Below are positions 695 through 26,532 of a DNA stretch of 64,000 nt, one piece after another. Source of the DNA: Thermoanaerobacter pseudethanolicus ATCC 33223 (GTDB lineage: Bacteria; Bacillota; Thermoanaerobacteria; Thermoanaerobacterales; Thermoanaerobacteraceae); the NCBI RefSeq assembly GCF_000019085.1, contig NC_010321.1:248001-312000 (forward strand). Reading direction: 5' to 3'. The notes beneath the pieces were generated by a model. It was not told the DNA's origin. It did not search any database and saw only the letters and a list, made by a program, of their open reading frames with translations. Position 1 is the stretch's first letter, and each line of letters starts with the position of its first letter. The translations under genes were made by a program, and so were the position numbers.

Positions 695-738
695 ATTAGC
701 ATAAAAATGGGGGACTAAGTCCCCATTTTTATGCTAAT
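695..738. terminator. Bidirectional hairpin at the adhB 3' end
   Basis: Perfect 18-base arms (695-712 and 721-738) enclose an 8-base loop. The outer part overlaps the adhB stop codon, and an A/T run inside each arm makes it plausible as a terminator in either direction. Confidence 0.7.
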
Positions 739-1787
739 ATTACAACAGGTTTGATTAGGTCTTTTGGTTTGTCTTTCATCAACATAAAGGCTTTTTCAAT
801 ATTGTCAAATCCCCGGAAAACGTGAGTGACGAGCTTAGAAGGATCGACACGCTTATAAAAAACAAGGTCAATCAGTCTTTCCATTCTTAGACGTCCACCG
901 GGGCATAGCCCGCCTTTTATAGTTTTATGAGCCATGCCGCAACCCCATTCAAGACGAGGAACAGGCAAAACCTCTCCTTCGCCAAAATAATTTACATTAG
1001 CGATGGTGCCACCAGGTTTAACAATCTTAACTGCTGTAGCCATAATGTCAGCATTTCCTCCAGCGATGATGGCAGCATCGACACCTTTGCCTTCAGTTAG
1101 ATTCATAATCTGACTTTCGATAGGACCATCTTTATAGTTTACAATATCAGTAGCTCCATAGTATTTTGCAGCATCTACACAAACTGGTCTACTGCCTACG
1201 GCAATAATTCTTCCGGCTCCACGCAATTTGGCACCAGCGACTGCCATAAGACCTACTGGGCCAATACCCAAAACTGCTACCGTCGCACCTAATTCTATAT
1301 CTGCCAGTTCAGCTCCGTGAAAACCAGTGGTCATCATATCGGGAATCATAACTGCAGCTTCCAATGGAATTTCTTTAGGCAGATGTGCTAAATTCATATC
1401 AGCATCATTCACATGAAAAAATTCACCAAAAACACCATCTTTTACATTCGAAAATTTCCAGCCTGCCAGCATTCCACCGGAGTGCTGGTGATATCCTCTT
1501 TGTACTTCAGAGGTCCGCCAATCAGGGGTAATAGCTGGCACAACAACGCGATCACCAGGTTTAAAATCTTTTACCTCACTACCTACTTCAACTACTTCAC
1601 CTACAGCTTCGTGACCGAGTATCATGTTATGTCTTTCGCCAATGGCGCCTTCAAAAACGGTATGAATGTCCGAAGTGCAAGGGGCCACAGCTAGAGGTCT
1701 TACAATAGCATCAAATGGGCCAGGAGCAGGCTTTTCCTTCTCAATCCAGCCAACTTTACCGATACTGAGCATTGCAAAACCTTTCAT
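729..1787 (-). CDS. adhB: NADP-dependent secondary alcohol dehydrogenase
   Basis: A 352-residue zinc-dependent medium-chain dehydrogenase that interconverts secondary alcohols and ketones (and acetaldehyde/ethanol) with NADP(H) in the cytoplasm. It agrees throughout with my memory of the T. brockii / T. ethanolicus enzyme. Catalytic zinc ligands are visible as C37, H59 and D150; the Rossmann motif GIGPVG is near 174-179; and the NADP 2'-phosphate pocket is the GSR at 198-200 with Y218. Two ATGs sit in tandem at 1790 and 1787 behind AGGAGG. I chose the second because the mature enzyme is known to begin MKGFAML. It is transcribed away from adhA from its own sigma-A type promoter. Both alcohol dehydrogenases take part in ethanol formation and redox balance. 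Confidence 0.97.
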   Translation of the reverse strand: MKGFAMLSIGKVGWIEKEKPAPGPFDAIVRPLAVAPCTSDIHTVFEGAIGERHNMILGHEAVGEVVEVGSEVKDFKPGDRVVVPAITPDWRTSEVQRGYHQHSGGMLAGWKFSNVKDGVFGEFFHVNDADMNLAHLPKEIPLEAAVMIPDMMTTGFHGAELADIELGATVAVLGIGPVGLMAVAGAKLRGAGRIIAVGSRPVCVDAAKYYGATDIVNYKDGPIESQIMNLTEGKGVDAAIIAGGNADIMATAVKIVKPGGTIANVNYFGEGEVLPVPRLEWGCGMAHKTIKGGLCPGGRLRMERLIDLVFYKRVDPSKLVTHVFRGFDNIEKAFMLMKDKPKDLIKPVVILA

Positions 1788-1849
1788 CATTAAAACACCT
1801 CCTAAAATACTGGGTAAGTCATTAATGTGAAAACTAGCTTACGCGATGA

Positions 1850-1867
1850 TTGTTAAATTTTTTGCAA
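1850..1867. promoter_or_regulatory. Rex-like redox box at the adhB transcription start
   Basis: TTGTTAAATTTTTTGCAA matches the Rex consensus TTGTTAANNNNTTAACAA at 12 of 14 positions, with a perfect left half. It lies directly downstream of the predicted adhB -10, where a bound repressor would block transcription when NADH is low. Confidence 0.45.
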
Positions 1868-1871
1868 TAAT

Positions 1872-1900
1872 ATAATAGCACATAGTTAAAAATTTATCAA
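1872..1900 (-). promoter_or_regulatory. adhB promoter
   Basis: Read on the minus strand: TTGATA, 17-base spacer, TATTAT. The 5' leader would be about 75 bases. An IS remnant begins 14 bases upstream of the -35. Confidence 0.7.
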
Positions 1901-1913
1901 TAATTTATTCGGA

Positions 1914-2020
1914 CATAGTTTAAAATTTCGTAGGGTTTTTTTAAGTAAAAAAGAACTAGAGAAATCTCTTGTGATAAAATAGCATTTGCAAAAAACAAGA
2001 TCACAGAAAGGGGTTGTCTA
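1914..2020 (+). mobile_element. ISLre2-type 5' end remnant
   Basis: This segment aligns, with scattered differences, to the reverse complement of about 59600-59709. The shared parts include CATAGTTTAAAATTTCGTAG at the outer end, a poly-T/A tract, TGTGATAAAATAG, and CACAGAAAGGGGTTGTCT. The 59.6 kb copy is attached to a decayed ISLre2 (UPF0236) transposase gene, which identifies both as the left end and leader of that family. Only about 107 bases survive here; similarity stops after 2020 and no transposase codons remain. Confidence 0.6.
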
Positions 2021-2183
2021 TTGTTCAAAATCTAGAAAGCATCATACACAATTTGCAGTATTTATTTGTCAAGCAAAAAATACTCCAAATTTCAGTTGAA
2101 ATTTTTTTATAAATTGCAATATTAAATGCAACACCTAATGAAAATCATGTAGATATAGGATTTGGAACAAATCATATATAACC

Positions 2184-3381
<1,198 letters not shown>

Positions 3382-3496
3382 CTATATCATACACGATTTT
3401 CACTATGGTTTCTATTCTTTTATCTGTTGCATTTAATTATACAACTAACCGTTGAAATTTTTTTCTTGGCTCTAAAAATAAATCAAAAGTTTAATA

Positions 3497-3525
3497 TTGA
3501 TTATTTTTTAACAAAATGCTATAAT
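3497..3525 (+). promoter_or_regulatory. adhA promoter overlapped by a Rex-like box
   Basis: TTGATT at 3497-3502, a 17-base spacer, then TATAAT at 3520-3525. The 18-mer TTGATTATTTTTTAACAA (3497-3514) matches the Rex consensus TTGTTAANNNNTTAACAA at 12 of 14 positions and covers the -35, a classic repressor position. The ribosome site AAGGAGGT is at 3546-3553. Confidence 0.6.
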
Positions 3526-3560
3526 TAGATTGATATAAATTTTACAAGGAGGTAATTGAA

Positions 3561-4772
3561 ATGTGGGAAACTAAAATAAATCCCACCAGGATTTTTGAAC
3601 TTCGGTGCAAGAATACAACTTATTTTGGAGTAGGTAGTATAAAGAAGATAGAAGACATTCTAGAAGTTCTAAAACATAAGGGTATCGATAATGTCATTTT
3701 TGTAACCGGAAAGAATTCATACAAAGTTAGTGGAGCTTGGGATGTGATAGAACCGGCTCTAAATACACTCGGCTTTAAATATTCACTTTATGACAAGGTC
3801 GGACCTAATCCTACTGTTGATATGGTCGATGAAGCGGCCAAATTCGGCCGGGAAACTGGGGCGAAGGCTGTTATTGGCATTGGTGGTGGAAGCCCTATAG
3901 ATACTGCAAAAAGTGTGGCTGTACTGTTAGAATATACTGATAAAAATGCAAGAGAACTTTATGAACTGAAATTCACGCCCGAAAAAGCTGCTCCTATTAT
4001 AGCTATAAATCTTACTCATGGTACTGGTACGGAAGTAGACCGATTTGCAGTAGCTACAATTCCAGAAAAAAATTATAAGCCTGCAATAGCTTATGAGTGC
4101 CTCTATCCTATGTATGCTATAGATGATCCTGCTCTCATGATAAAGCTTGATAAAAAACAGACAATAGCTGTTACTATAGATGCTTTAAATCACGTTACCG
4201 AAGCTGCCACTACTCTTGTGACATCACCTTACAGTATTCTATTGGCGAAAGAGGCAGTGAGGTTGATAGTTCGTTACCTCCCTGTTGCTGTAAATGACCC
4301 TGAAAACCTTGTGGCTAGATATTATTTGCTTTATGCTTCTGCTATAGCTGGTATTTCTTTTGACAATGGTCTCTTGCACCTTACTCATGCACTGGAGCAC
4401 CCACTAAGTGCAGGAAAACCTGAGATTGCCCACGGTCTTGGGCTTGGTGCTATACTGCCTGCAGTGGTAAAGACTATTTATCCTGCTGTTGCAGAGGTGT
4501 TAGCTGACATATACAGCCCTATCGTGCCTGGACTAAAAGGACTGCCTGCTGAAGCAGAATATGTAGCTAAAAAAGTCGAAGAATGGCTCTTCAATGTAGG
4601 ATGTACTCAAAAACTTTCAGACTTTGGATTTACAAAAGATGATGTTCCAACCCTAGTAAAGCTTGCTAAAACGACACCTTCTCTCGATGGATTACTTTCT
4701 ATTGCACCAGTGGAAGCCACTGAAACTGTTATTGCCAAGATTTATGAAGAATCTCTTAACCCAATCTCTTAA
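3561..4772 (+). CDS. adhA: Iron-containing primary alcohol dehydrogenase AdhA
   Basis: A 403-residue group III (Fe-ADH) dehydrogenase reducing aldehydes to primary alcohols, probably with NADPH as described for AdhA of T. ethanolicus. The nucleotide-binding signature GIGGGSPIDTAK is at about 106-117. Metal ligands by family alignment are D207 and H211 (in DALNHVTEA), H276 (LTHALEHP) and H291 (EIAHGLG). An ATG follows AAGGAGGT with a 7-base gap. The gene is monocistronic: its own promoter lies in front and a strong terminator follows. The divergent neighbour adhB is the usual partner in this genus. The IS30 element sits just upstream, but the promoter and Rex-like box are intact. Confidence 0.92.
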   Translation: MWETKINPTRIFELRCKNTTYFGVGSIKKIEDILEVLKHKGIDNVIFVTGKNSYKVSGAWDVIEPALNTLGFKYSLYDKVGPNPTVDMVDEAAKFGRETGAKAVIGIGGGSPIDTAKSVAVLLEYTDKNARELYELKFTPEKAAPIIAINLTHGTGTEVDRFAVATIPEKNYKPAIAYECLYPMYAIDDPALMIKLDKKQTIAVTIDALNHVTEAATTLVTSPYSILLAKEAVRLIVRYLPVAVNDPENLVARYYLLYASAIAGISFDNGLLHLTHALEHPLSAGKPEIAHGLGLGAILPAVVKTIYPAVAEVLADIYSPIVPGLKGLPAEAEYVAKKVEEWLFNVGCTQKLSDFGFTKDDVPTLVKLAKTTPSLDGLLSIAPVEATETVIAKIYEESLNPIS

Positions 4773-4826
4773 CCCATAGCCAAAGGCTATTCTGATACAA
4801 AGTGCCAAAAGGTTCAACAATTTAAA

Positions 4827-4864
4827 AAAACCCCACTTTTAGCCAATACAAAAAGTGGGGTTTT
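4827..4864. terminator. adhA terminator
   Basis: Perfect 14-base arms (4827-4840 and 4851-4864) around a 10-base loop, with A-rich and T-rich sides. Strong intrinsic terminator. Confidence 0.85.
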
Positions 4865-5043
4865 CATCTTTATGTATTTAATTATTGCAAAAAACACAAA
4901 AGTAAAGATTTTATAATTGGATATGAGGGTGTGTCAAAGGAGTAATGATTAAGGTTGCCGATAAATATTTCACTTCTGTGACGCGCCGGAGGTGGCGAGG
5001 ATTTAGAAGCTATAAAAAATAGTAAATGGGAGGAGGATTGATT
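4865..5043 (+). other. Junction between AT-rich DNA and the GC-rich hydrogenase unit; possible 25-codon ORF
   Basis: Base composition shifts near 4975 from AT-rich to GC-rich. A 25-codon frame (4945-5022, ATG behind AAAGGAG) straddles the shift and ends four bases before the next gene's ribosome site. It matches no family I know and may be the fused tail of a lost upstream gene. No convincing promoter is visible. Confidence 0.3.
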
Positions 5044-6771
5044 TTGGATGTAATCAGTGTATCTAAGGCAAACTGCAAAAATTGCTACCGGTGCGTTAGG
5101 CATTGTCCTGTCAAAGCTATAAAAGTAGTCGGCGGTCAGGCGGAAGTTGTGGATAGCTTATGTATATACTGTGGAAGGTGTGTCATCGAATGCCCCCAGA
5201 ATGCCAAGAAAATACGGAACGACCTACATGCAGTAAAAGAATTCATAAATGCCGGTGAAAAGGTTGTAGCCTCCATAGCTCCTTCTTACCCTGCTGTCTT
5301 TGACGTAACTTCTCCTCAGGAGATGTTTTCCATACTGAAGGCCCTAGGGTTTTATGGAGCTGAGGAAACAGCGGTGGGAGCTGAAATGGTATCTATGGAG
5401 TACCAGCATTTGATCAAAAAGGGGCAGAAGGGTCCCATTATAACCACGGCTTGCCCGGTTGTAAAAAATCTGGTAGAGAAATATTATCCAGGACTTATAA
5501 GGAATCTAGCTCCGGTGGTTTCCCCGATGGTTGCTCATGCAAGGTCATTGAAGCAAAGATATGGGTTGGACATTAAAGTTGTTTTTATAGGTCCCTGCAT
5601 TGCCAAAAAAGCTGAAGCCCTAGATAGAAGCGTTTTAGGGAACGTAGATGCAGTACTAACTTTTCAAGAATTGGCCGATTGGATAGATGAGAAAGCTTCC
5701 GCGGTAGCTGGAGTAGACTTTGGAGAGCGAGAAAATGTATTAGAACCTTTTATTGCTAGGAGTTATCCCTTGCCAGGGGGGCTTTTAAAGACTTCTTCAA
5801 TGGAGGATGACCTTTTGTCCCGAGAGGTCGTAGTCGTAGACGGCATGGAGGACTGCATGGAACTTTTAGATGCCCTGGAGCGCGGAAGCGTAAGCGGCCG
5901 GCTCTTTGAGATGATGGCGTGCAGGGGCGGCTGTATCAATGGGCCCTCGATGCCGTGTGACAGTTCCCTTTATGAAAGAAGGGAAAGGTTGCTTTCATTT
6001 ATAGAAAATAATCAACAGCAGCAGGGATATGAGGATATAAAGGCTTCTGCGGCGGGTATTGACCTCAGGAGGTCTTTCGAGCCGAAGGCCTTTAAAGCGC
6101 CTAGGCCAACCGAATCAGAGATAAGAGAAATACTGGCTTCAATAGGCAAAACGACTCCAGAAAAGGAACTGAACTGCGGGGCATGCGGATATCCTTCCTG
6201 CCGCAAAAAAGCCGAGGCCGTCTACCGGGGAATGGCGGAGCCGGACATGTGTATCCCCTACATGAGGTCCAGGGCCGAATCTCTGGCCAACCTGATCATA
6301 GACCACACCCCGAACGGCATCATTTTGGTAGACAGTAATTTGAATATAAAGGAAATAAACAGAGCGGCGGAAAAAATGTTCGGTGTTGAAAAGGAACAGG
6401 TCCAGGGGAAGCCCCTTTCCACCGTCATCGACGACAGGGATTTTGCCTGGGTACTGGCCAATAAAACTAACCTGCAGGATAAAAAGGTGAACTATCCCCG
6501 GAATTTTTTAACTACCCTCCAGACTATATGCTATATCGAGGAAGAGGACCTGGTACTGGCGATTATTCAGGATATTACCGAACAGGAAAAGCAGAGGATG
6601 GAACTGGAAAGGGTGAGAGAGGAGACCCTGGAGAAGGCCCAGGAAGTAATAAACAGGCAGATGTGCGTGGCCCAGGAAATAGCGGGACTACTTGGAGAGA
6701 CGACGGCGGAGAGCAAGATGCTGCTCCTTAAGCTTATAGAACTGGTTAAAGGCAGGGAAGAAGAAAAGTGA
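5044..6771 (+). CDS. Sensory [FeFe]-hydrogenase-like protein with PAS domain (HydS type)
   Basis: About 575 residues. Domains in order: two [4Fe-4S] ferredoxin motifs (C11/C14/C17/C21 and C40/C43/C46/C50), an H-cluster domain, a further CxxCx4C iron-sulfur motif near 380, a PAS domain (about 415-515) and a C-terminal coiled coil. H-cluster signatures are TTACP (C137), GPCIAKKAE (C185) and MMACRGGC (C293, C297), so all four cluster cysteines are kept. The proton-transfer cysteine of catalytic enzymes (TSCCP) is Ala136 here, as in the Thermotoga sensory enzyme HydS. This points to a low-activity H2 or redox sensor rather than a bulk hydrogenase. I start at TTG 5044, 7 bases after GGGAGGAGG; the upstream ATG at 5026 overlaps that site. 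GC content is clearly above that of the neighbours. The gene overlaps the phosphatase by 4 bases. Confidence 0.88.
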   Translation: MDVISVSKANCKNCYRCVRHCPVKAIKVVGGQAEVVDSLCIYCGRCVIECPQNAKKIRNDLHAVKEFINAGEKVVASIAPSYPAVFDVTSPQEMFSILKALGFYGAEETAVGAEMVSMEYQHLIKKGQKGPIITTACPVVKNLVEKYYPGLIRNLAPVVSPMVAHARSLKQRYGLDIKVVFIGPCIAKKAEALDRSVLGNVDAVLTFQELADWIDEKASAVAGVDFGERENVLEPFIARSYPLPGGLLKTSSMEDDLLSREVVVVDGMEDCMELLDALERGSVSGRLFEMMACRGGCINGPSMPCDSSLYERRERLLSFIENNQQQQGYEDIKASAAGIDLRRSFEPKAFKAPRPTESEIREILASIGKTTPEKELNCGACGYPSCRKKAEAVYRGMAEPDMCIPYMRSRAESLANLIIDHTPNGIILVDSNLNIKEINRAAEKMFGVEKEQVQGKPLSTVIDDRDFAWVLANKTNLQDKKVNYPRNFLTTLQTICYIEEEDLVLAIIQDITEQEKQRMELERVREETLEKAQEVINRQMCVAQEIAGLLGETTAESKMLLLKLIELVKGREEEK

Positions 6772-7946
6772 AGGTCTTTGCTGAAGTGTTCACCAAAAGC
6801 CTTACCAAAAAAGGAGAAGAGCTGTGCGGGGACAGCGTTGAGGTTATGCAATCCGAAGACGGCATAATTGCCGTAATGGCCGATGGCCTGGGGAGCGGGG
6901 TAAAGGCCAGTATACTTTCCACTCTTACCGTAAGGATTGCTTCTACCATGATAAAAAACAGAGCTTCCATAGAAGAAGTGGTCAGGACCCTGATTAATAC
7001 TCTCCCAGTGTGCCGCGTCCGGCAGCTTGCTTACTCCACTTTTTCCATTCTCGAGATTAACGATGACGGAGAGGGAAGGCTTTTTGAATTTGATAATCCA
7101 CCTGTGATCTACATCCGGGACGGAAGGGTTCTTAAGCTACCTTACAGGGAACTGAGGGTGGAAGAGAGGAGGATTCTGGAGTACCGGTTTGAAGCCTTTC
7201 CGGGGGATAAAATATTCCTGGTAAGCGACGGAGTCATTCACGCAGGGGTGGGAGGTGTCCTGAACCTGGGATGGCAGTGGCCTAATGTGGCCGAATACCT
7301 GCAGAGGCTTGACAGAAGTGGATGCTTCGTGTCGGAAATGGTGGACCAGCTGATCAAAACGTGTAGCCACCTTTATTCCGGTAATCCGGGGGACGATACC
7401 ACGGTCGTGGGAGTAGGTTTAAGAAAGTCGGAGCTGATCACGGTACTAGTTGGGCCCCCTGAAGATAGGTCAAAGGATACAGAAGTCGTGAAAAAACTTA
7501 TCGACAGCGAAGGCAAAAAGGTGGTCTGTGGAGGTACTACTGCAAATATTGTTTCTAGGGAAACTGGAAGGAAAGTAGTCACAAATATGGACTATGCCGA
7601 CCCGGCTATACCTCCCGTCGGTAGCATAGAGGGAATAGACCTCGTAACCGAAGGTTTGATAACTTTAAGCAGGTGTGTCGAGATACTGAGAAATTTTGTA
7701 AACACGTATTCCTTTTCTCCCCACTTCTTGGACGATATAAGGAAAAAGAAAGACGGAGCTTCAATGCTGGCAGACCTGCTTGTCAATCGCTCCACCCACA
7801 TCCGATTTCTGGTGGGGCGAGCGGTCAATCCCGCCCACCGGAATGCATACCTGCCGGAAGGCGTAAGCGACAAGCTCAAGATAGTAGAGGAACTGGCCCA
7901 AATCCTGAAAAAATGCGGCAAGAGGGTGTATATAGAGCTTTATTAG
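6768..7946 (+). CDS. SpoIIE/PP2C-family serine phosphatase, partner of HydS
   Basis: A 392-residue cytoplasmic protein. Residues 1 to about 215 form a PP2C-type (SpoIIE) phosphatase domain with metal-binding aspartates in MADGLGSG (about 43-50) and GDDTTVVG (about 207-214). The remaining 175 residues form a second domain I do not recognise; it has a glycine-rich stretch (KKVVCGGTTANIVSRETGRK) and a conserved-looking MDYADPAIPPVGSIEG segment. The GTG start lies in the sequence GTGA, overlapping the hydrogenase stop, so translation is probably coupled. Such pairs are known next to group C [FeFe]-hydrogenases and are taken to carry the H2/redox signal to a Ser/Thr phospho-target. The target here is unknown. 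Same high GC as its partner. Confidence 0.85.
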   Translation: MKVFAEVFTKSLTKKGEELCGDSVEVMQSEDGIIAVMADGLGSGVKASILSTLTVRIASTMIKNRASIEEVVRTLINTLPVCRVRQLAYSTFSILEINDDGEGRLFEFDNPPVIYIRDGRVLKLPYRELRVEERRILEYRFEAFPGDKIFLVSDGVIHAGVGGVLNLGWQWPNVAEYLQRLDRSGCFVSEMVDQLIKTCSHLYSGNPGDDTTVVGVGLRKSELITVLVGPPEDRSKDTEVVKKLIDSEGKKVVCGGTTANIVSRETGRKVVTNMDYADPAIPPVGSIEGIDLVTEGLITLSRCVEILRNFVNTYSFSPHFLDDIRKKKDGASMLADLLVNRSTHIRFLVGRAVNPAHRNAYLPEGVSDKLKIVEELAQILKKCGKRVYIELY

Positions 7947-8157
7947 ATGAAAAAGAGGCATTGGCTGCTCAAGCCGCTTTTTATATTTTTGCTGTTTTTG
8001 AGACATTTAAAAAGGATTTCACACATTTTAATTATACCAGACAGAAGGGAGGCAGCCTCTACTCTTTTTATTGTATTTTCTTCTTCAATGTTTTTGCAAT
8101 TATTCTCCAAGTGGTAAATATGTCTATACCTATTCAAGAAATTTTTTTGAAAAACTC

Positions 8158-8185
8158 TTGAAAAAAATTTTTATGGTGGTATAAT
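8158..8185 (+). promoter_or_regulatory. Promoter of the arginine operon
   Basis: TTGAAA at 8158-8163, 16-base spacer, TATAAT at 8180-8185. The first ARG-box-like repeat starts 14 bases downstream, over or just after the transcription start. The leader to argC is about 140 bases. Confidence 0.65.
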
Positions 8186-8198
8186 GTAAAATAAAAGT

Positions 8199-8277
8199 TG
8201 CATAATTATAAATTAAATATTGTATTTATACAGCAAAGAATATTTTTTTAACACTTTATGCATAAATATAAATTAAA
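8199..8277 (+). promoter_or_regulatory. Two ARG-box-like repeats (ArgR operator)
   Basis: Two 19-base copies, TGCATAATTATAAATTAAA (8199-8217) and TGCATAAATATAAATTAAA (8259-8277), differ at one base and are exactly 60 bases apart, about six helical turns. They resemble ArgR/AhrC operators (TGNATAWWWATNCA type). A further near-palindrome TGTATTTATACA lies at 8221-8232. ArgR repression in arginine excess is the expected regulation. The stretch 7947-8157 before it holds nothing I can assign. Confidence 0.6.
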
Positions 8278-8330
8278 ACGTATATATATTAATTGGCGAT
8301 AAAGGATGTAAACAAGGGAGGCAGTTTTAA

Positions 8331-9365
8331 ATGGTGAAGGTAGGAATATTTGGGGCAACGGGTTATACAGGGGTCGAACTTATAAGAATACTTTCAAAGC
8401 ATGAAAAAGTAGAGATAAAATATCTTTCTTCTCAAAGTTATAATACCAAAGCAATTTCGGATGTTTATTCATCCCTCATTGGTTTTTGCGACAAAGTGTT
8501 GGAAGAGGTAGACTTCCAAAAGGCAATGTCAGAGTGCGATGTCATATTTACGGCTTTGCCTTCAGGTCATGCTTCAAAAATCGCCAGAGAAGCTGTAAAA
8601 AAAGGAGTAAAGGTGATTGACTTAGGAGCTGACTTTAGATTTGACGATTATTCTGTCTATAAAGAATGGTATAGTGGAGATTATGAGGATTATGGAGATA
8701 TTAAAAGAGTATATGGTATCCCTGAAATTTATAGAGATGACATAAAAGAGGCTCAAGTTGTAGGAAATCCTGGATGTTATCCTACAAGTGTTATATTAGG
8801 GCTTATGCCTCTTTTGAAAAATGGCATAATAGAGGGGAATATAATTGTTGATTCAAAGTCAGGAGTATCAGGGGCAGGTCACAATCCCTCCTATAACAAT
8901 ATGTATGCAGAATGCAATGAAAACATAAAAGCGTATAATGTTGCAAAACACCGACATATTCCAGAGATGGAGCAAGAGCTTTCAAAAATTTTTGGTGAAA
9001 AAGTGTCAGTTGTGTTTACACCCCACCTTGCGCCAATGACAAGAGGAATTTTAAGTACTATGTATTGCAAACTAAAAAAAGATATGGATGTAAACACTGT
9101 TTATAATATTTATACTGATTTTTATAAAAATGAGTATTTTGTAAAAGTGCTAAAACCAGGCAATTACCCTGCAACAAAAAATGTGTATGGGTCGAATTTT
9201 TGTCACATAGGGTTTGAAGTTGATAAGCATACTAATACTTTAATAGTTATGTCTGCCATTGATAATCTCGTTAAAGGGGCCTCAGGCCAGGCAGTGCAAA
9301 ATATGAATATTATGTTTGGAATAGAGGAAAATACAGCACTTGATATTGTTCCAATATATCCATAG
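8331..9365 (+). CDS. argC: N-acetyl-gamma-glutamyl-phosphate reductase
   Basis: 344 residues, the usual length. It reduces N-acetylglutamyl phosphate to the semialdehyde with NADPH, the third step to ornithine. The N-terminal Rossmann motif [16 protein letters not shown] is at residues 5-20, and the active-site cysteine is in GNPGCYPTS (C148). A conserved histidine-rich segment, [10 protein letters not shown], follows. The ATG is preceded by AAGGGAGGC. First gene of an eight-gene operon with tight spacing; transcription probably starts at 8190 under ArgR control. Confidence 0.95.
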
Positions 9366-19755: not shown

Positions 19756-19868
19756 TCTTCTTTTGTTGTAGGAGGTGAGGGTGGTTAAATTCATATAAAA
19801 AATTTGATTAATAAATAGAGGTTAAAATGAGGAAAAATAAATGTAGATACAATAAGGGAGGGTCGCTG

Positions 19869-22580
19869 TTGGAGAATAGAAAATGGTATACCTTACATGC
19901 AACGGATATTGCCGAATTACTTAGCACTCATTTGTCAAAGGGACTTTCATCCGAAGTCGCCCGACAAAGGCTTGAGGAACAAGGATACAACGAGCTTGTA
20001 AGCAAAAGAGGGTTGACTTTTTTTGAAATGTTTTTGAGTCAATTCAAGGATTTCCTAGTAATTATACTTATCATTGCTAGCCTGGTATCTATGCTGGTGG
20101 GCGAAGTAATCGATTCGGCTGTAATTATAATGATAGTTATTCTAAATGCGATACTAGGTGTAATACAGGAATATAGGGCGAATAAAGCCCTAGATGCTTT
20201 AAAGAAGATGGCAGCTCCTGAGGCGCGGGTTATAAGAGACGGCACGGTCCAGGTTATCCCCGCTCGCGAACTGGTCCCAGGGGACATAGTTTTGCTCGAA
20301 GCCGGAAACTACGTGCCAGCAGATTTGAGATTGGTGGAAAGTGTAAATCTAAAAATCGACGAATCAGCGCTTACCGGGGAATCGGTTCCTGTTGAAAAAA
20401 ACGCCGATATAGTGTTCAACGAAGAGATGCCACTTGGAGACAGGGCTAATTCTGCTTTTATGGGCACTGTCGTTACTTACGGCAGGGGCAAAGGCATAGT
20501 GGTATCAACGGGCATGAAGACTGAAATAGGTATGATAGCCGAAATGCTCGAGTCTTACCAGGATGAAGTCACGCCTCTCCAGAAAAAATTGGAACAAACG
20601 GGGAAAGCACTTGGAATCGCCAGCCTCGTTATATCCGGCATTGTCTTTTTACTGGGGCTTTTAAGAGGCATCCAATTTTTAGAGATGTTCATGACTGCTG
20701 TCAGCCTTGCGGTAGCGGCTATACCTGAAGGCCTTCCTGCAATAGTAACAATAGTCCTGGCCCTCGGCATGCAGCGCATGGTAAAGCGTAATGCACTCGT
20801 AAAAAAACTACACGCTGTGGAGACCCTTGGAAGTACTACAGTTATATGTTCCGATAAAACGGGTACCCTCACCCAGAACCAGATGACTGCAACAAAAATT
20901 TTTACGAATGGCCAATTTTTTTCTATTAGCGGTGAAGGTTACAGGCCTTACGGAGAATTTTACATTGACAGCTCCAAAATCGATCCGAAATCCGATACAT
21001 GTCTGGAACTGCTCTTAAAAATTGGAGCTCTTTGTAACGATTCCAGGTTGGAGGGAAGCGGTACCGAACACGAAGATCAAAAATCCTGGAGAATTCTCGG
21101 TGATCCCACCGAGGGAGCTCTTGTAGTTGCTGCTGCTAAAGCCGGAATATTCGTTGAAGACCTAGAGAAAACACAGCCCCGCCTTAACGAAATTCCCTTT
21201 GATTCTGATAGAAAGCTTATGACGACAATTCATCCTTTTGACGGAAAATATATAGCATATACAAAAGGGGCACCGGATGTCCTCTTAAGTCTTTCAAGTT
21301 ATATTTACAAAAATGGCCAGGAGGTACCTTTAACACAGGAGGATATAGAAGCTATAATTGCGGCCAATAAAGCCATGGCGTCTCAGGCTCTCAGGGTGCT
21401 TGCTCTGGCTTACAAGCCTTTGAATGATTTGCCAGAGGAACCGAAGGCGGAAGATATTGAAAAAGATTTTGTATTCGTCGGTTTGATAGGTATGATTGAT
21501 CCTCCGCGACCTGAAGCCATAGAGGCAATAAAGACATGTAAGCAGGCAGGTATATGGCCTGTAATGATTACCGGCGATCACAGAGACACCGCGGTAGCCA
21601 TAGCGAAGGATCTAGGCCTAATTGAGAGCGAGGCAGGTGTACTGACAGGTGCCGAACTGGACTCCATGAGCGACGACGAGATGTTCCAGAAGTCCAGGGA
21701 GGTATCGGTTTACGCCAGAGTATCACCAATCCATAAACTTAGAATAGTAGAAGCCATAAAAAATAACGGCCACATCGTGGCAATGACAGGAGACGGTGTT
21801 AACGACGCACCGGCCTTAAAGAAAGCTGATATAGGTGTGGCTATGGGTATTACCGGCACTGATGTCGCCAAGGAAACCGCTGATATGATTCTGGTCGACG
21901 ACAATTTTGCCAGCATAGTTTCTGCAGTGGAGGAAGGCAGGGTTATTTACTCCAACATACGTAAATTCATATTTTTCCTACTCTCGTGCAACATCGCGGA
22001 GATACTCATTATATTTGTCTCCATGCTGGCGGGATTGCCTATACCGCTGAAACCCGTTCAGCTTTTGTGGATAAACGTGCTCACAGACGCATTCCCGGCT
22101 CTGGCTCTGGGTATGGAAAAGAAGGAGCCGGATATAATGCAACAGCCGCCCAGGAGACCGGAAGAACCTATAATAGACACCCGCATGAGGTGGCAAATTG
22201 CGATACAGAGCATTTTTATGACCGTTTCTATAATCGGAGTATTCGTTTTTGCTTTGAAATATACCGACAGTATCGAAAAGGCAAGGACTTTTGCTTTTGC
22301 TACGCTAATTTTCAGCGAACTCTTGCGGGCTTTCTCTGCCCGTTCTGAGACCCATTCAGTATTTAAAATTGGATTTTTTACCAACCATTTTATGCTCTGG
22401 GGCACATTTATCTCGCTAATCCTGCTGCTGGCTGTAATCTATGTGCCATTCTTGAGAACTATCTTTGACACGACGTACCTATCATTCTACGAAATGGATA
22501 TCGTCATAATATTCGGTTTGATACCCTTCGCCGCTGCGGAGATAAGCAAAATATTCTTGTCTTCCAGAGGTCATCGGTAA
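19869..22580 (+). CDS. P2-type cation-transporting ATPase (Ca2+/Mn2+)
   Basis: About 903 residues in the membrane. N-terminal cation-ATPase domain, actuator motif TGES (169-172), M4 motif PEGLPA, phosphorylation site DKTGT with Asp329, KGAPD in the nucleotide domain, hinge TGDGVNDAP (about 640-648), and C-terminal helices including NVLTDAFPALALG, the SERCA/PMR1-like ion site in M6. The family moves Ca2+ or Mn2+ out of the cytoplasm. The Mn2+ riboswitch upstream favours manganese (inference). I place the start at TTG 19869, 7 bases after AGGGAGGG; the ATG at 19827 has a weaker site and adds 14 atypical residues. GC content is above the local average. An efficient terminator follows. Confidence 0.93.
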   Translation: MENRKWYTLHATDIAELLSTHLSKGLSSEVARQRLEEQGYNELVSKRGLTFFEMFLSQFKDFLVIILIIASLVSMLVGEVIDSAVIIMIVILNAILGVIQEYRANKALDALKKMAAPEARVIRDGTVQVIPARELVPGDIVLLEAGNYVPADLRLVESVNLKIDESALTGESVPVEKNADIVFNEEMPLGDRANSAFMGTVVTYGRGKGIVVSTGMKTEIGMIAEMLESYQDEVTPLQKKLEQTGKALGIASLVISGIVFLLGLLRGIQFLEMFMTAVSLAVAAIPEGLPAIVTIVLALGMQRMVKRNALVKKLHAVETLGSTTVICSDKTGTLTQNQMTATKIFTNGQFFSISGEGYRPYGEFYIDSSKIDPKSDTCLELLLKIGALCNDSRLEGSGTEHEDQKSWRILGDPTEGALVVAAAKAGIFVEDLEKTQPRLNEIPFDSDRKLMTTIHPFDGKYIAYTKGAPDVLLSLSSYIYKNGQEVPLTQEDIEAIIAANKAMASQALRVLALAYKPLNDLPEEPKAEDIEKDFVFVGLIGMIDPPRPEAIEAIKTCKQAGIWPVMITGDHRDTAVAIAKDLGLIESEAGVLTGAELDSMSDDEMFQKSREVSVYARVSPIHKLRIVEAIKNNGHIVAMTGDGVNDAPALKKADIGVAMGITGTDVAKETADMILVDDNFASIVSAVEEGRVIYSNIRKFIFFLLSCNIAEILIIFVSMLAGLPIPLKPVQLLWINVLTDAFPALALGMEKKEPDIMQQPPRRPEEPIIDTRMRWQIAIQSIFMTVSIIGVFVFALKYTDSIEKARTFAFATLIFSELLRAFSARSETHSVFKIGFFTNHFMLWGTFISLILLLAVIYVPFLRTIFDTTYLSFYEMDIVIIFGLIPFAAAEISKIFLSSRGHR

Positions 22581-24632: not shown

Positions 24633-24746
24633 AAAGGGATATTAAGATAATGTTTTCGTTGTCAAACTATAGACAGACTACAATTAATATAGTAAAATAT
24701 ATGTAAAGAATGTTGTTATAATTATATCAAATAAGAGGTGTTTTTT

Positions 24747-26532
24747 ATGAGTGATCATAAAAGAATTATCATCATTGGGGCCGGGTATGGGGGCGTACAT
24801 GCCGCTAAATTACTACACAAAAAATTTAAAAATGACAGCAATATAGAAATAATTCTTATTGACAAAAAACCTTATCATACATTGTTAACAGATTTACATG
24901 AAGTAGCTGGCTCCAGAATAGAACCCGACAGTGTTCGTGTGTATTTACACAAGATTTTTGCAAATAAAAAAGTAGAAGTCATAATAGATGAAGTAGAAAA
25001 GATTGATTATGAAAAGCAAAGCGTAATTGGAAAAGATGGGGAGTATAACTATGATTATTTGATTTTAGGAATTGGAAGTGAGCCATGTGATTTTGGTATA
25101 CCCGGTGTATTTGAGTATGGGTTTACGGTAGGAACGTTAGAAGCTGCTATTAAGACAAGGGAACATATTGAGGAGATGTTTAGAAAAGCGAGTGTTGAAA
25201 GTAATGCAGAAAAGAAAAATGCTTACCTTTGTGGTAGCTGGCGCAGGGTTTACGGGAATTGAAACTGCAGGCGAATTGATGGAATGGACAAAAAGTTTAT
25301 GCGATAAATATCATTTAGATCACAATGATGTTAAAATTATGGTGATAGAAGCGTTGAATACCATACTTCCTAATTTAAATGCAAAATTAGCTAATAAAGC
25401 TGCTAAATTTTTGGCCAAAAAAGGTGTAGAAGTTTTAACAAATGCTCCTATAGTAGAAGTAGCAAAAGATTATATAGTTTTAAAAGATGGCAGAAAAATT
25501 GAAACAAAAACTCTTATATGGACGTGTGGAGTTCAGGGTAACAAATGTGTTGAGAATTTTGGTTTAGAGTTAGGTAGAAGATCTAGAGTTCAGACGAATG
25601 AGTACATGCAGGCAGTAGGCAAAGAAAACATTTATGTAATAGGAGATTTAGCTTATTATGAGTTAGATGGTAAACCTATTCCACAAATAGTAGAGACTGC
25701 CTTGCAGTCTGCCGAAACTGTAGTACACAATATAGTAGCTGATATAAAAGGAGGAGAAAAACAACCTTTTAAACCGAAATATCATGGTTTTATGGTTTCT
25801 ATAGGAAGTAGGTATGCAGTGGCAGAACTTATGGGTGTATCTTTGACAGGTTTTTTAGCTATGGCTATGAAACACCTTGTAAATATGCATTATCTTTTTG
25901 GTGTAGCAGGTTTTAATGCGGTGTTATCATACATTTATCACGAGTTCTTTGAAATTAAAAACAATCGTTCAATATTAGGAGGACATATTGCTGCACATAT
26001 CCCCATATTTTGGCTGGTTCTTTTAAGGATATATGTAGGTGCATTGTGGCTTATAGAAGGTATAAACAAAATACAGCAAGGATGGCTTGACCCTACAAAA
26101 ATATTTATTATAACTACCTCTGATGTATCTGGTGCTACTGCTAAAGCTGGTGAAGCTGCTACTGCAGCACAAACTTTGCAACCTTTGTTAAAAGAACCTC
26201 CTGCTTTTTACAAATGGTTTATGGATACTTTTGTGGCGCCACATGCCTTTTTGTTCCAAGCGATGGTAGTACTAGCGGAAGTAGCAATAGGCTTGGCTTT
26301 AATAGCAGGTTTGTTTACTGTTTTAGCATCAGCTGGTTCTATATTCTTAGCACTTAATTTTATATTATCTGCGATGGCAGATAAGTCTATATTATGGTAT
26401 ATATTTGCAGCTATAGCTTTAATGGGAGGGGCAGGAAGAGCTTTTGGACTGGATTATTACGTGATACCTTGGATAAAGAATTGGTGGAAAAAGACCTCTT
26501 TTGCACGAAAAACGTATCTTTATATCAGTTGA
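24747..26532 (+). pseudogene. ndh2: Type II NADH dehydrogenase with DoxX-like domain (Ndh2), frameshifted
   Basis: A continuous Ndh2-like protein of about 594 residues is obtained only if one A is removed from the five-A run at 25215-25219. As given, the first frame stops at 25262, and the second frame carries on with KMLTFVVAGAGFTGIETAGE. The N-terminal FAD motif is GAGYGGVHAA, the NADH-binding motif is GAGFTGIE, and the flavin end motif is VYVIGDLA. After residue 400 comes a membrane part with several helices resembling DoxX. In Listeria, Ndh2 with an extra C-terminal membrane domain passes electrons from NADH to demethylmenaquinone for extracellular electron transfer. ATG 24747 has AAGAGGTG upstream. 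Sequencing error and true mutation cannot be told apart here. Confidence 0.82.

Follow-up and report, generated by a model that had tools for sequence, protein, structure and literature searches.

The genome of Thermoanaerobacter pseudethanolicus ATCC 33223, a single contig of 2,362,816 bases, carries beside argC a gene pair, hfsB and hfsC, encoding a putative sensory [FeFe] hydrogenase and a predicted phosphatase. Analysis of the 64,000 nucleotides containing the pair (positions 248001-312000 of the contig, hereafter the window) makes it quite probable that hfsBC is half of the clostridial HfsABC(D) hydrogen-sensing system, that it was laterally acquired, and that HfsB controls HfsC. The system type is already known from HfsABCD of Thermoanaerobacterium and HydS of Ruminococcus albus. 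It is a long-standing problem how the pressure of hydrogen directs fermentation between H2 and ethanol, and hfsB is among the few genes whose deletion shifts the H2/ethanol balance in several species. The locus is a stripped natural system of sensor and phosphatase, moved between distant thermophile lineages and lying beside ethanol genes, and would thus make a simple test bed.

Acquisition of hfsBC by an ancestor of Thermoanaerobacter from a Thermosediminibacteraceae-like donor is strongly supported by the sequence comparisons. HfsB is 83% identical to that of Thermosediminibacter litoriperuensis, its best relative outside the genus, as opposed to 45-48% to the sister genus, taken here as Thermoanaerobacterium from its hfsABCD operon. 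For the control gene carB the relationship is reversed, with 61% to Thermosediminibacter and 76-77% to the sister genus. HfsB of other members of the Thermosediminibacter family showed 78, 68, 67, 67 and 67% identity, and the Thermoanaerobacter proteins were nested among the Thermosediminibacteraceae with a support of 100. Forced monophyly with the sister genus came at a cost of 137 log units (approximately unbiased (AU) test, p 4.9e-7). The lateral transfer proposed in a first-pass annotation of this DNA, made from the sequence alone, is borne out by the identity discordance, the nested tree and the AU test. Its claim that the pair is richer in G+C than the neighbouring genes also held, since the G+C content at third codon positions (GC3) of hfsB (0.51, z = 5.0) and hfsC (0.54, z = 5.7) is the highest in the window, compared with 0.266 ± 0.049 for the 44 other open reading frames (ORFs) of at least 150 amino acids. 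The corresponding GC3 values for hfsB and hfsC are 0.67 and 0.56 in Thermosediminibacter, 0.60 and 0.56 in a second copy in T. wiegelii, and 0.41 and 0.35 in a further locus, L048, and this gradient from Thermosediminibacter to L048 fits amelioration.

The insertion site can be read from close relatives. Four congeners (G001, G005, G006 and G008) have nfnB-nfnA-adhB next to argC and neither adhA nor hfs genes; in G006 an IS30 element lies between adhB and argC. The adhB-argC spacer of the other three, approximately 360 bases long, matches window positions 1730-1902 and 8138-8360 in blastn. An alternative history, in which hfsBC was inherited vertically, the GC difference reflects codon-use selection and other lineages lost the genes, would be in line with the homologues present in the sister genus and in many Clostridia. 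We hold it to be extremely improbable in view of the carB discordance, the nesting and the AU test, which rejects it under the model used. In addition, the GC shift is not ancestral in relatives, as these four congeners lack the genes at the site and the hfs genes of the sister genus have an ordinary GC3 (0.24-0.26). A foreign origin was also considered for adhA, adhB and nfnAB and found unsupported, their GC3 being native or slightly raised (0.24-0.39). The acquired DNA can be traced from about 4937-4949 on, where a truncated hfsA begins, and the insert ends near 8138; the sharp GC change that had been placed near 4975 is real in terms of GC3, but its position has to be moved to this boundary.

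Upstream of hfsB, relatives usually carry hfsA, which encodes a thioredoxin-like [2Fe-2S] protein (PF01257) and has been called poorly alignable (PMC11837493), and downstream of hfsC there is often hfsD, a group B hydrogenase gene, or hydABC. One member of the donor-like family (G069) has the order hydC-hydB-hydA-hfsA-hfsB-hfsC. The hfsA remnant of the window aligns with the last third of the intact hfsA, 84 codons long, of T. wiegelii copy 2 (L050) and of Thermosediminibacter (L049), and hfsD is absent from the genome in a survey of Fe_hyd_lg_C domains. An internally deleted hfsA is seen in T. thermocopriae (L052); a true pseudogene is not claimed for this draft genome (G007), in which neighbouring genes are broken as well and sequencing errors are likely.

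Within the genus, the adhA-hfsBC block is found at three sites: on the argC side, in a stretch of T. wiegelii rich in insertion sequences (94% identity over 4.7 kb) and in the record of Caldanaerobacter subterraneus DSM 13054 (98% over 4.5 kb). The ratios of nonsynonymous to synonymous substitution rates of hfsB (0.12-0.16) and hfsC (0.13-0.22) are similar to those of argC and adhA, showing that the truncated pair is maintained by purifying selection. The second T. wiegelii copy (L050:7744-10887) has an intact hfsA, an hfsB with a frameshift near residue 34 and Thr at the position of cysteine 299 of the hydrogenase CpI, and an HfsC protein identical to that of copy 1, a pattern suggestive of a decaying hfsB and of recent gene conversion in hfsC. 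Synonymous divergence between L048 and the window is uneven (adhA 0.10, hfsB 0.37, hfsC 0.69, argC 0.21) and indicates that the block has recombined repeatedly within the genus.

HfsB contains two N-terminal 4Fe-4S motifs and matches the Pfam families Fe_hyd_lg_C (2e-58), FeS PF04060 and PAS (2e-10), and the AlphaFold2 models of HfsB and HfsC are confident (mean predicted local distance difference test score 87 for both). All four H-cluster cysteines (C137, C185, C293 and C297) are present, as they are in 81 of 81 family members, and the cysteines of the C-terminal FeS motif (C378, C381, C386 and C403) are invariant in the HfsB alignment. Pfam and the alignment thereby confirm the four cysteines, the PAS domain and the SpoIIE partner described at first pass. 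The Ala reported in place of the proton-transfer cysteine is indeed found (Ala136, immediately before C137, at the CpI C299 position), but it loses its value as evidence for a sensor, and was ruled out as a proof or family hallmark, since this position is mixed in the 81 relatives (Cys 49, Ala 20, Ser 11, Thr 1). The positions of CpI E279 and S319 are Tyr and Ala in HfsB, almost all of the 81 members have lost the remainder of the CpI proton path, and 74 of the 81 have Gly at the M353 position. The PAS domain, the placement in the tree and this remaining loss of the proton path are better evidence for the predicted sensory role.

In the H-domain tree the HfsB clade has a Shimodaira-Hasegawa-like approximate likelihood ratio (SH-aLRT) support of 99 and lies with sensory group C proteins, apart from the catalytic group A (SH-aLRT 100) and from groups D (100) and B (82). 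Its tree neighbours have this sensor core joined to a sigma-54 activator, a histidine kinase or a chemotaxis domain. Three Fe_hyd_lg_C genes exist in the whole genome: hydA, hfsB and a group D gene. TamHydS, the group D (M2e) protein of T. mathranii, was rejected as the identity of HfsB, which has a PAS domain and another tree position; the TamHydS counterpart is a gene for 439 amino acids in the hyd locus at 1,497 kb of the genome. Gene order and the set of three [FeFe] hydrogenases make hfsB very probably Teth39_0221, which appears in the literature as an M2f sensory hydrogenase (PMC3561251) and as PAS-sensory (PMC3608648), with the alcohol dehydrogenase Teth39_0220 next to it (PMC3561251, PMC3608648).

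HfsB might instead be mainly a slow catalytic hydrogenase, serving as an electron/H2 valve that the phosphatase only modulates, so that the pair is metabolic and not a sensor. The complete set of H-cluster ligands, the Cys at the C299 position in most homologues and the interconversion of H+ and H2 by group D TamHydS (PMC8163306) agree with such a role, which we nevertheless consider quite unlikely given the otherwise lost proton path, the PAS domain, the phosphatase partner and the transcription or chemotaxis outputs fused to relatives. Moreover, hydrogenase activity in Thermoanaerobacterium saccharolyticum was raised, not lowered, by deletion of hfsB (PMC5707799).

HfsC matches SpoIIE (PF07228, 1e-19), and a Foldseek search with its model, the list being dominated by the phosphatase half, returned SpoIIE, RsbX and RsbU as the nearest folds of that half. 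The acidic residues of the PPM metal site (D22, D39, D154, D209 and D210) are invariant in 59 HfsC sequences; the C-terminal part of about 170 residues gave no significant sequence match in Pfam or the PDB. Across 74 pairs, in which a few loci enter twice, hfsB lies next to hfsC on the same strand, mostly with an overlap of 4 bases. The same overlap is found here: hfsB starts at a TTG behind a GGAGGAGG site, and hfsC starts at a GTG within the end of hfsB, so that the extent 5044-7946 and the coupling of the genes had been annotated correctly. Near-invariant at the C-terminus of HfsB is the motif QM..AQEIA.LLGETTAE.K, which was looked for without success in groups A, B and D and in the sensory proteins that carry fused outputs. 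Being found only in HfsC-partnered sensors, this motif is proposed as the HfsC contact, and would predict where on HfsB the phosphatase is touched.

One may envisage that HfsB senses H2 or the ferredoxin pool at its H-cluster and that the state of this cluster would be relayed to the PAS domain and the C-terminal helix. This helix would dock on co-translated HfsC and set its predicted Ser/Thr phosphatase activity, and HfsC could in turn dephosphorylate a regulator of fermentation genes. The effect of HfsB on HfsC would be one of restraint, which fits the published epistasis. In T. saccharolyticum, deletion of hfsA or hfsB increased both adhE expression and ethanol, the latter about 1.8-fold; deletion of hfsC or hfsD directed flux to lactate without increasing adhE expression or ethanol, and deletion of the whole hfs operon left adhE expression unincreased and gave no substantial rise in ethanol (PMC5707799). 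Ethanol likewise rose on deletion of hfsB in C. thermocellum, in two more Thermoanaerobacterium species and in T. mathranii, a species lacking hfsA, and fermentation was thus shifted in five species in all (PMC5707799). As caveats, the hfsA deletion also reduced expression of genes downstream of hfsA, and hfsD alone was enough for high ethanol in Thermoanaerobacterium thermosaccharolyticum (PMC11837493). Two points weigh against a hydrogen-sensing HfsBC acting in this manner: group D TamHydS is catalytically active and the redox state of its C-terminal cluster is unchanged with H2 (PMC13104023), and the published targets, hfsD and adhE expression, may differ here, hfsD being absent.

No gene for a STAS protein or an RsbW-type kinase lies alongside hfsC. 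Genome-wide, we found one STAS protein (SpoIIAA), two SpoIIE-type phosphatases (SpoIIE and HfsC) and two HATPase_c_2 proteins over the cut-off, namely SpoIIAB and a kinase of the hyd locus encoded beside the group D hydrogenase. In this hyd locus (genome 1,490-1,499 kb; L034:4457-12744), adjoining the TamHydS-type hydrogenase, the gene for the RsbW-like HATPase overlaps one for a DRTGG-domain protein, an arrangement resembling a kinase-antagonist pair without a STAS protein. A narrower version of the proposed mechanism would let HfsC oppose this kinase (genome 1,497,970-1,498,443), with the overlapping DRTGG neighbour as substrate and both sensory hydrogenases feeding one partner switch. The shortage of other HATPase_c_2 candidates, the overlap itself and the joining of kinase, group D hydrogenase, hydCBA and hfsABC in a single locus (L090) would favour it; the DRTGG substrate is, however, a guess, and the many genomes with a group D hydrogenase and without HfsB speak against an obligate link. 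We therefore think this version unlikely. That HfsC acts on SpoIIAA, coupling the H2 or redox state to sporulation sigma-F, appears highly improbable. SpoIIAA is the sole STAS protein found and HfsC the sole SpoIIE-type phosphatase besides SpoIIE, but this step has its dedicated phosphatase in SpoIIE, and the published phenotypes are fermentative (PMC5707799).

Ruminococcus albus, the host of the homologue HydS, is to our knowledge non-sporulating, which also counts against a role at SpoIIAA. For HfsB restraining a phosphatase that acts on a fermentation regulator, the likely beneficiary is the NADPH/ferredoxin-linked ethanol pathway, whose genes adhA, adhB and nfnAB adjoin the pair. A genome of another family in the same order (G021) has hfsBC without hfsA in the same layout with nfnAB, a Zn-dependent and an Fe-dependent alcohol dehydrogenase, although these dehydrogenases are only 31-35% identical to those of the window. 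This repeated layout, a single case, supports a functional link of hfsBC with NADPH/ferredoxin-dependent alcohol formation. The Rex-like control of the neighbouring alcohol dehydrogenases that had been put forward as a suggestive setting is a hint at most: two-mismatch sites resembling a Rex box cluster around the two dehydrogenase genes (window 628, 1850, 1883 and 3497) and are present 5′ of both, but the scan of the window gave no operator match 5′ of hfsB, and at up to three mismatches 32 sites were observed with 18.9 expected. In L042, L044, L045 and L124, loci of distantly related genomes, a Rex gene is located within a few kb of hfsABC.

One may further speculate that the loss of hfsA after the transfer, in addition to the lack of hfsD, rewired the sensor, and that the orphan HfsBC biases its host towards ethanol via the nfn/adh or the hyd genes. 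We regard this as doubtful though worth entertaining. If so, HfsBC would parallel in nature the engineered removal of hfsA by which ethanol yield was raised in Thermoanaerobacterium, and could be one cause of the reported high-ethanol, low-H2 habit of T. pseudethanolicus.

The closest described systems are HfsABCD of T. saccharolyticum and T. thermosaccharolyticum (PMC5707799, PMC11837493), in which a PAS-type HfsB is likewise followed by the phosphatase HfsC. HfsB and HfsC are about 45-48% identical to these counterparts, and the present locus differs in the hfsA remnant, the absent hfsD, the independent acquisition and the adhA, adhB and nfnAB neighbours. T. mathranii, with its hfsB (PMC5707799), belongs to the same genus and is also without hfsA. 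HydS of R. albus, as cited in PMC5707799 and PMC11837493, is a PAS-type sensory hydrogenase whose gene has a Ser/Thr signalling gene and the hfsD-like hydA2 as neighbours; T. pseudethanolicus, in contrast, has no HfsD-like enzyme in its genome. With HydS of Thermotoga maritima (PMC10055695; described in PMC8163306) HfsB shares group C, the PAS domain, the Cx2Cx4Cx16C motif, the M353 to Gly change and the lost proton path, whereas Met is kept at M497 in HfsB and replaced by Ser in the T. maritima protein. TamHydS (PMC8163306) shares the C-terminal FeS motif, a disrupted proton path and a putative sensory role, and differs in tree group, in locus and in having no PAS domain. SpoIIE/RsbU-type PPM phosphatases share the PPM fold and the acidic metal-site residues with HfsC, which differs in having no adjacent STAS or kinase gene and a C-terminal domain of its own. 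In the literature searched, subscription journals lying outside it, no description was found of the transfer, the hfsA remnant, the orphan state, the sensor-specific motif or, for T. pseudethanolicus, the phosphatase partner.

Coordinates of the locus are collected in Table 1. The IS30-type transposase gene is missing between adhB and adhA in L048 and L052 and is hence taken as a later insertion. The loop of the hairpin behind adhA exceeds the length allowed by our terminator scan; given this likely terminator, hfsB probably has its own promoter.

Table 1. Features of the hfsBC locus in window coordinates.
Feature	Position	Strand	Basis and remarks
nfnA	start ~529	-	same strand as adhB; nfnB next, beyond the window; nfnB-nfnA-adhB found in L126 and congeners
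adhB, Zn-dependent secondary alcohol dehydrogenase	729-1790	-	ORF; ancestral left neighbour of the insertion site
Insert relative to the adhB-argC spacing of G001, G005 and G008	about 1903-8138		blastn; IS30, adhA, hfsA remnant, hfsB, hfsC, tail
IS30-type transposase	2302-3381	-	ORF
adhA, Fe-ADH-type primary alcohol dehydrogenase	3561-4772	+	GC3 0.27, native-like
Likely intrinsic terminator of adhA	4826-4864	+	CCCCAC...GTGGGG then T, read from the sequence
hfsA remnant, last third of gene, frame lost	4949-5041	+	alignment with hfsA of L050, L049 and L052; left edge of GC-rich DNA
hfsB, sensory [FeFe] hydrogenase, group C/M2f	5044-6771	+	575 amino acids; start TTG 5044, stop 6771
HfsB 4Fe-4S region	5044-5208	+	domain span
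HfsB H-domain	5257-5946	+	domain span
HfsB FeS motif Cx2Cx4Cx16C	6169-6258	+	domain span
HfsB PAS domain	6292-6576	+	domain span
HfsB C-terminal motif	6658-6717	+	near-invariant in HfsB
hfsC, SpoIIE/PPM phosphatase	6768-7946	+	start GTG 6768, stop 7946; phosphatase domain ~6768-7415, then C-terminal domain of unknown family ~7431-7943
argC	8331-9365	+	ORF; ancestral right neighbour of the insertion site

Elsewhere in the window, a gene for a P-type cation ATPase of 917 amino acids (19827-22580) has the third-highest GC3 (0.46; window mean 0.27) and may be a second acquired gene. A gene resembling NADH dehydrogenase (24738-26532) lies in two overlapping frames (24738-25262 and 25168-26532) and looks frameshifted.

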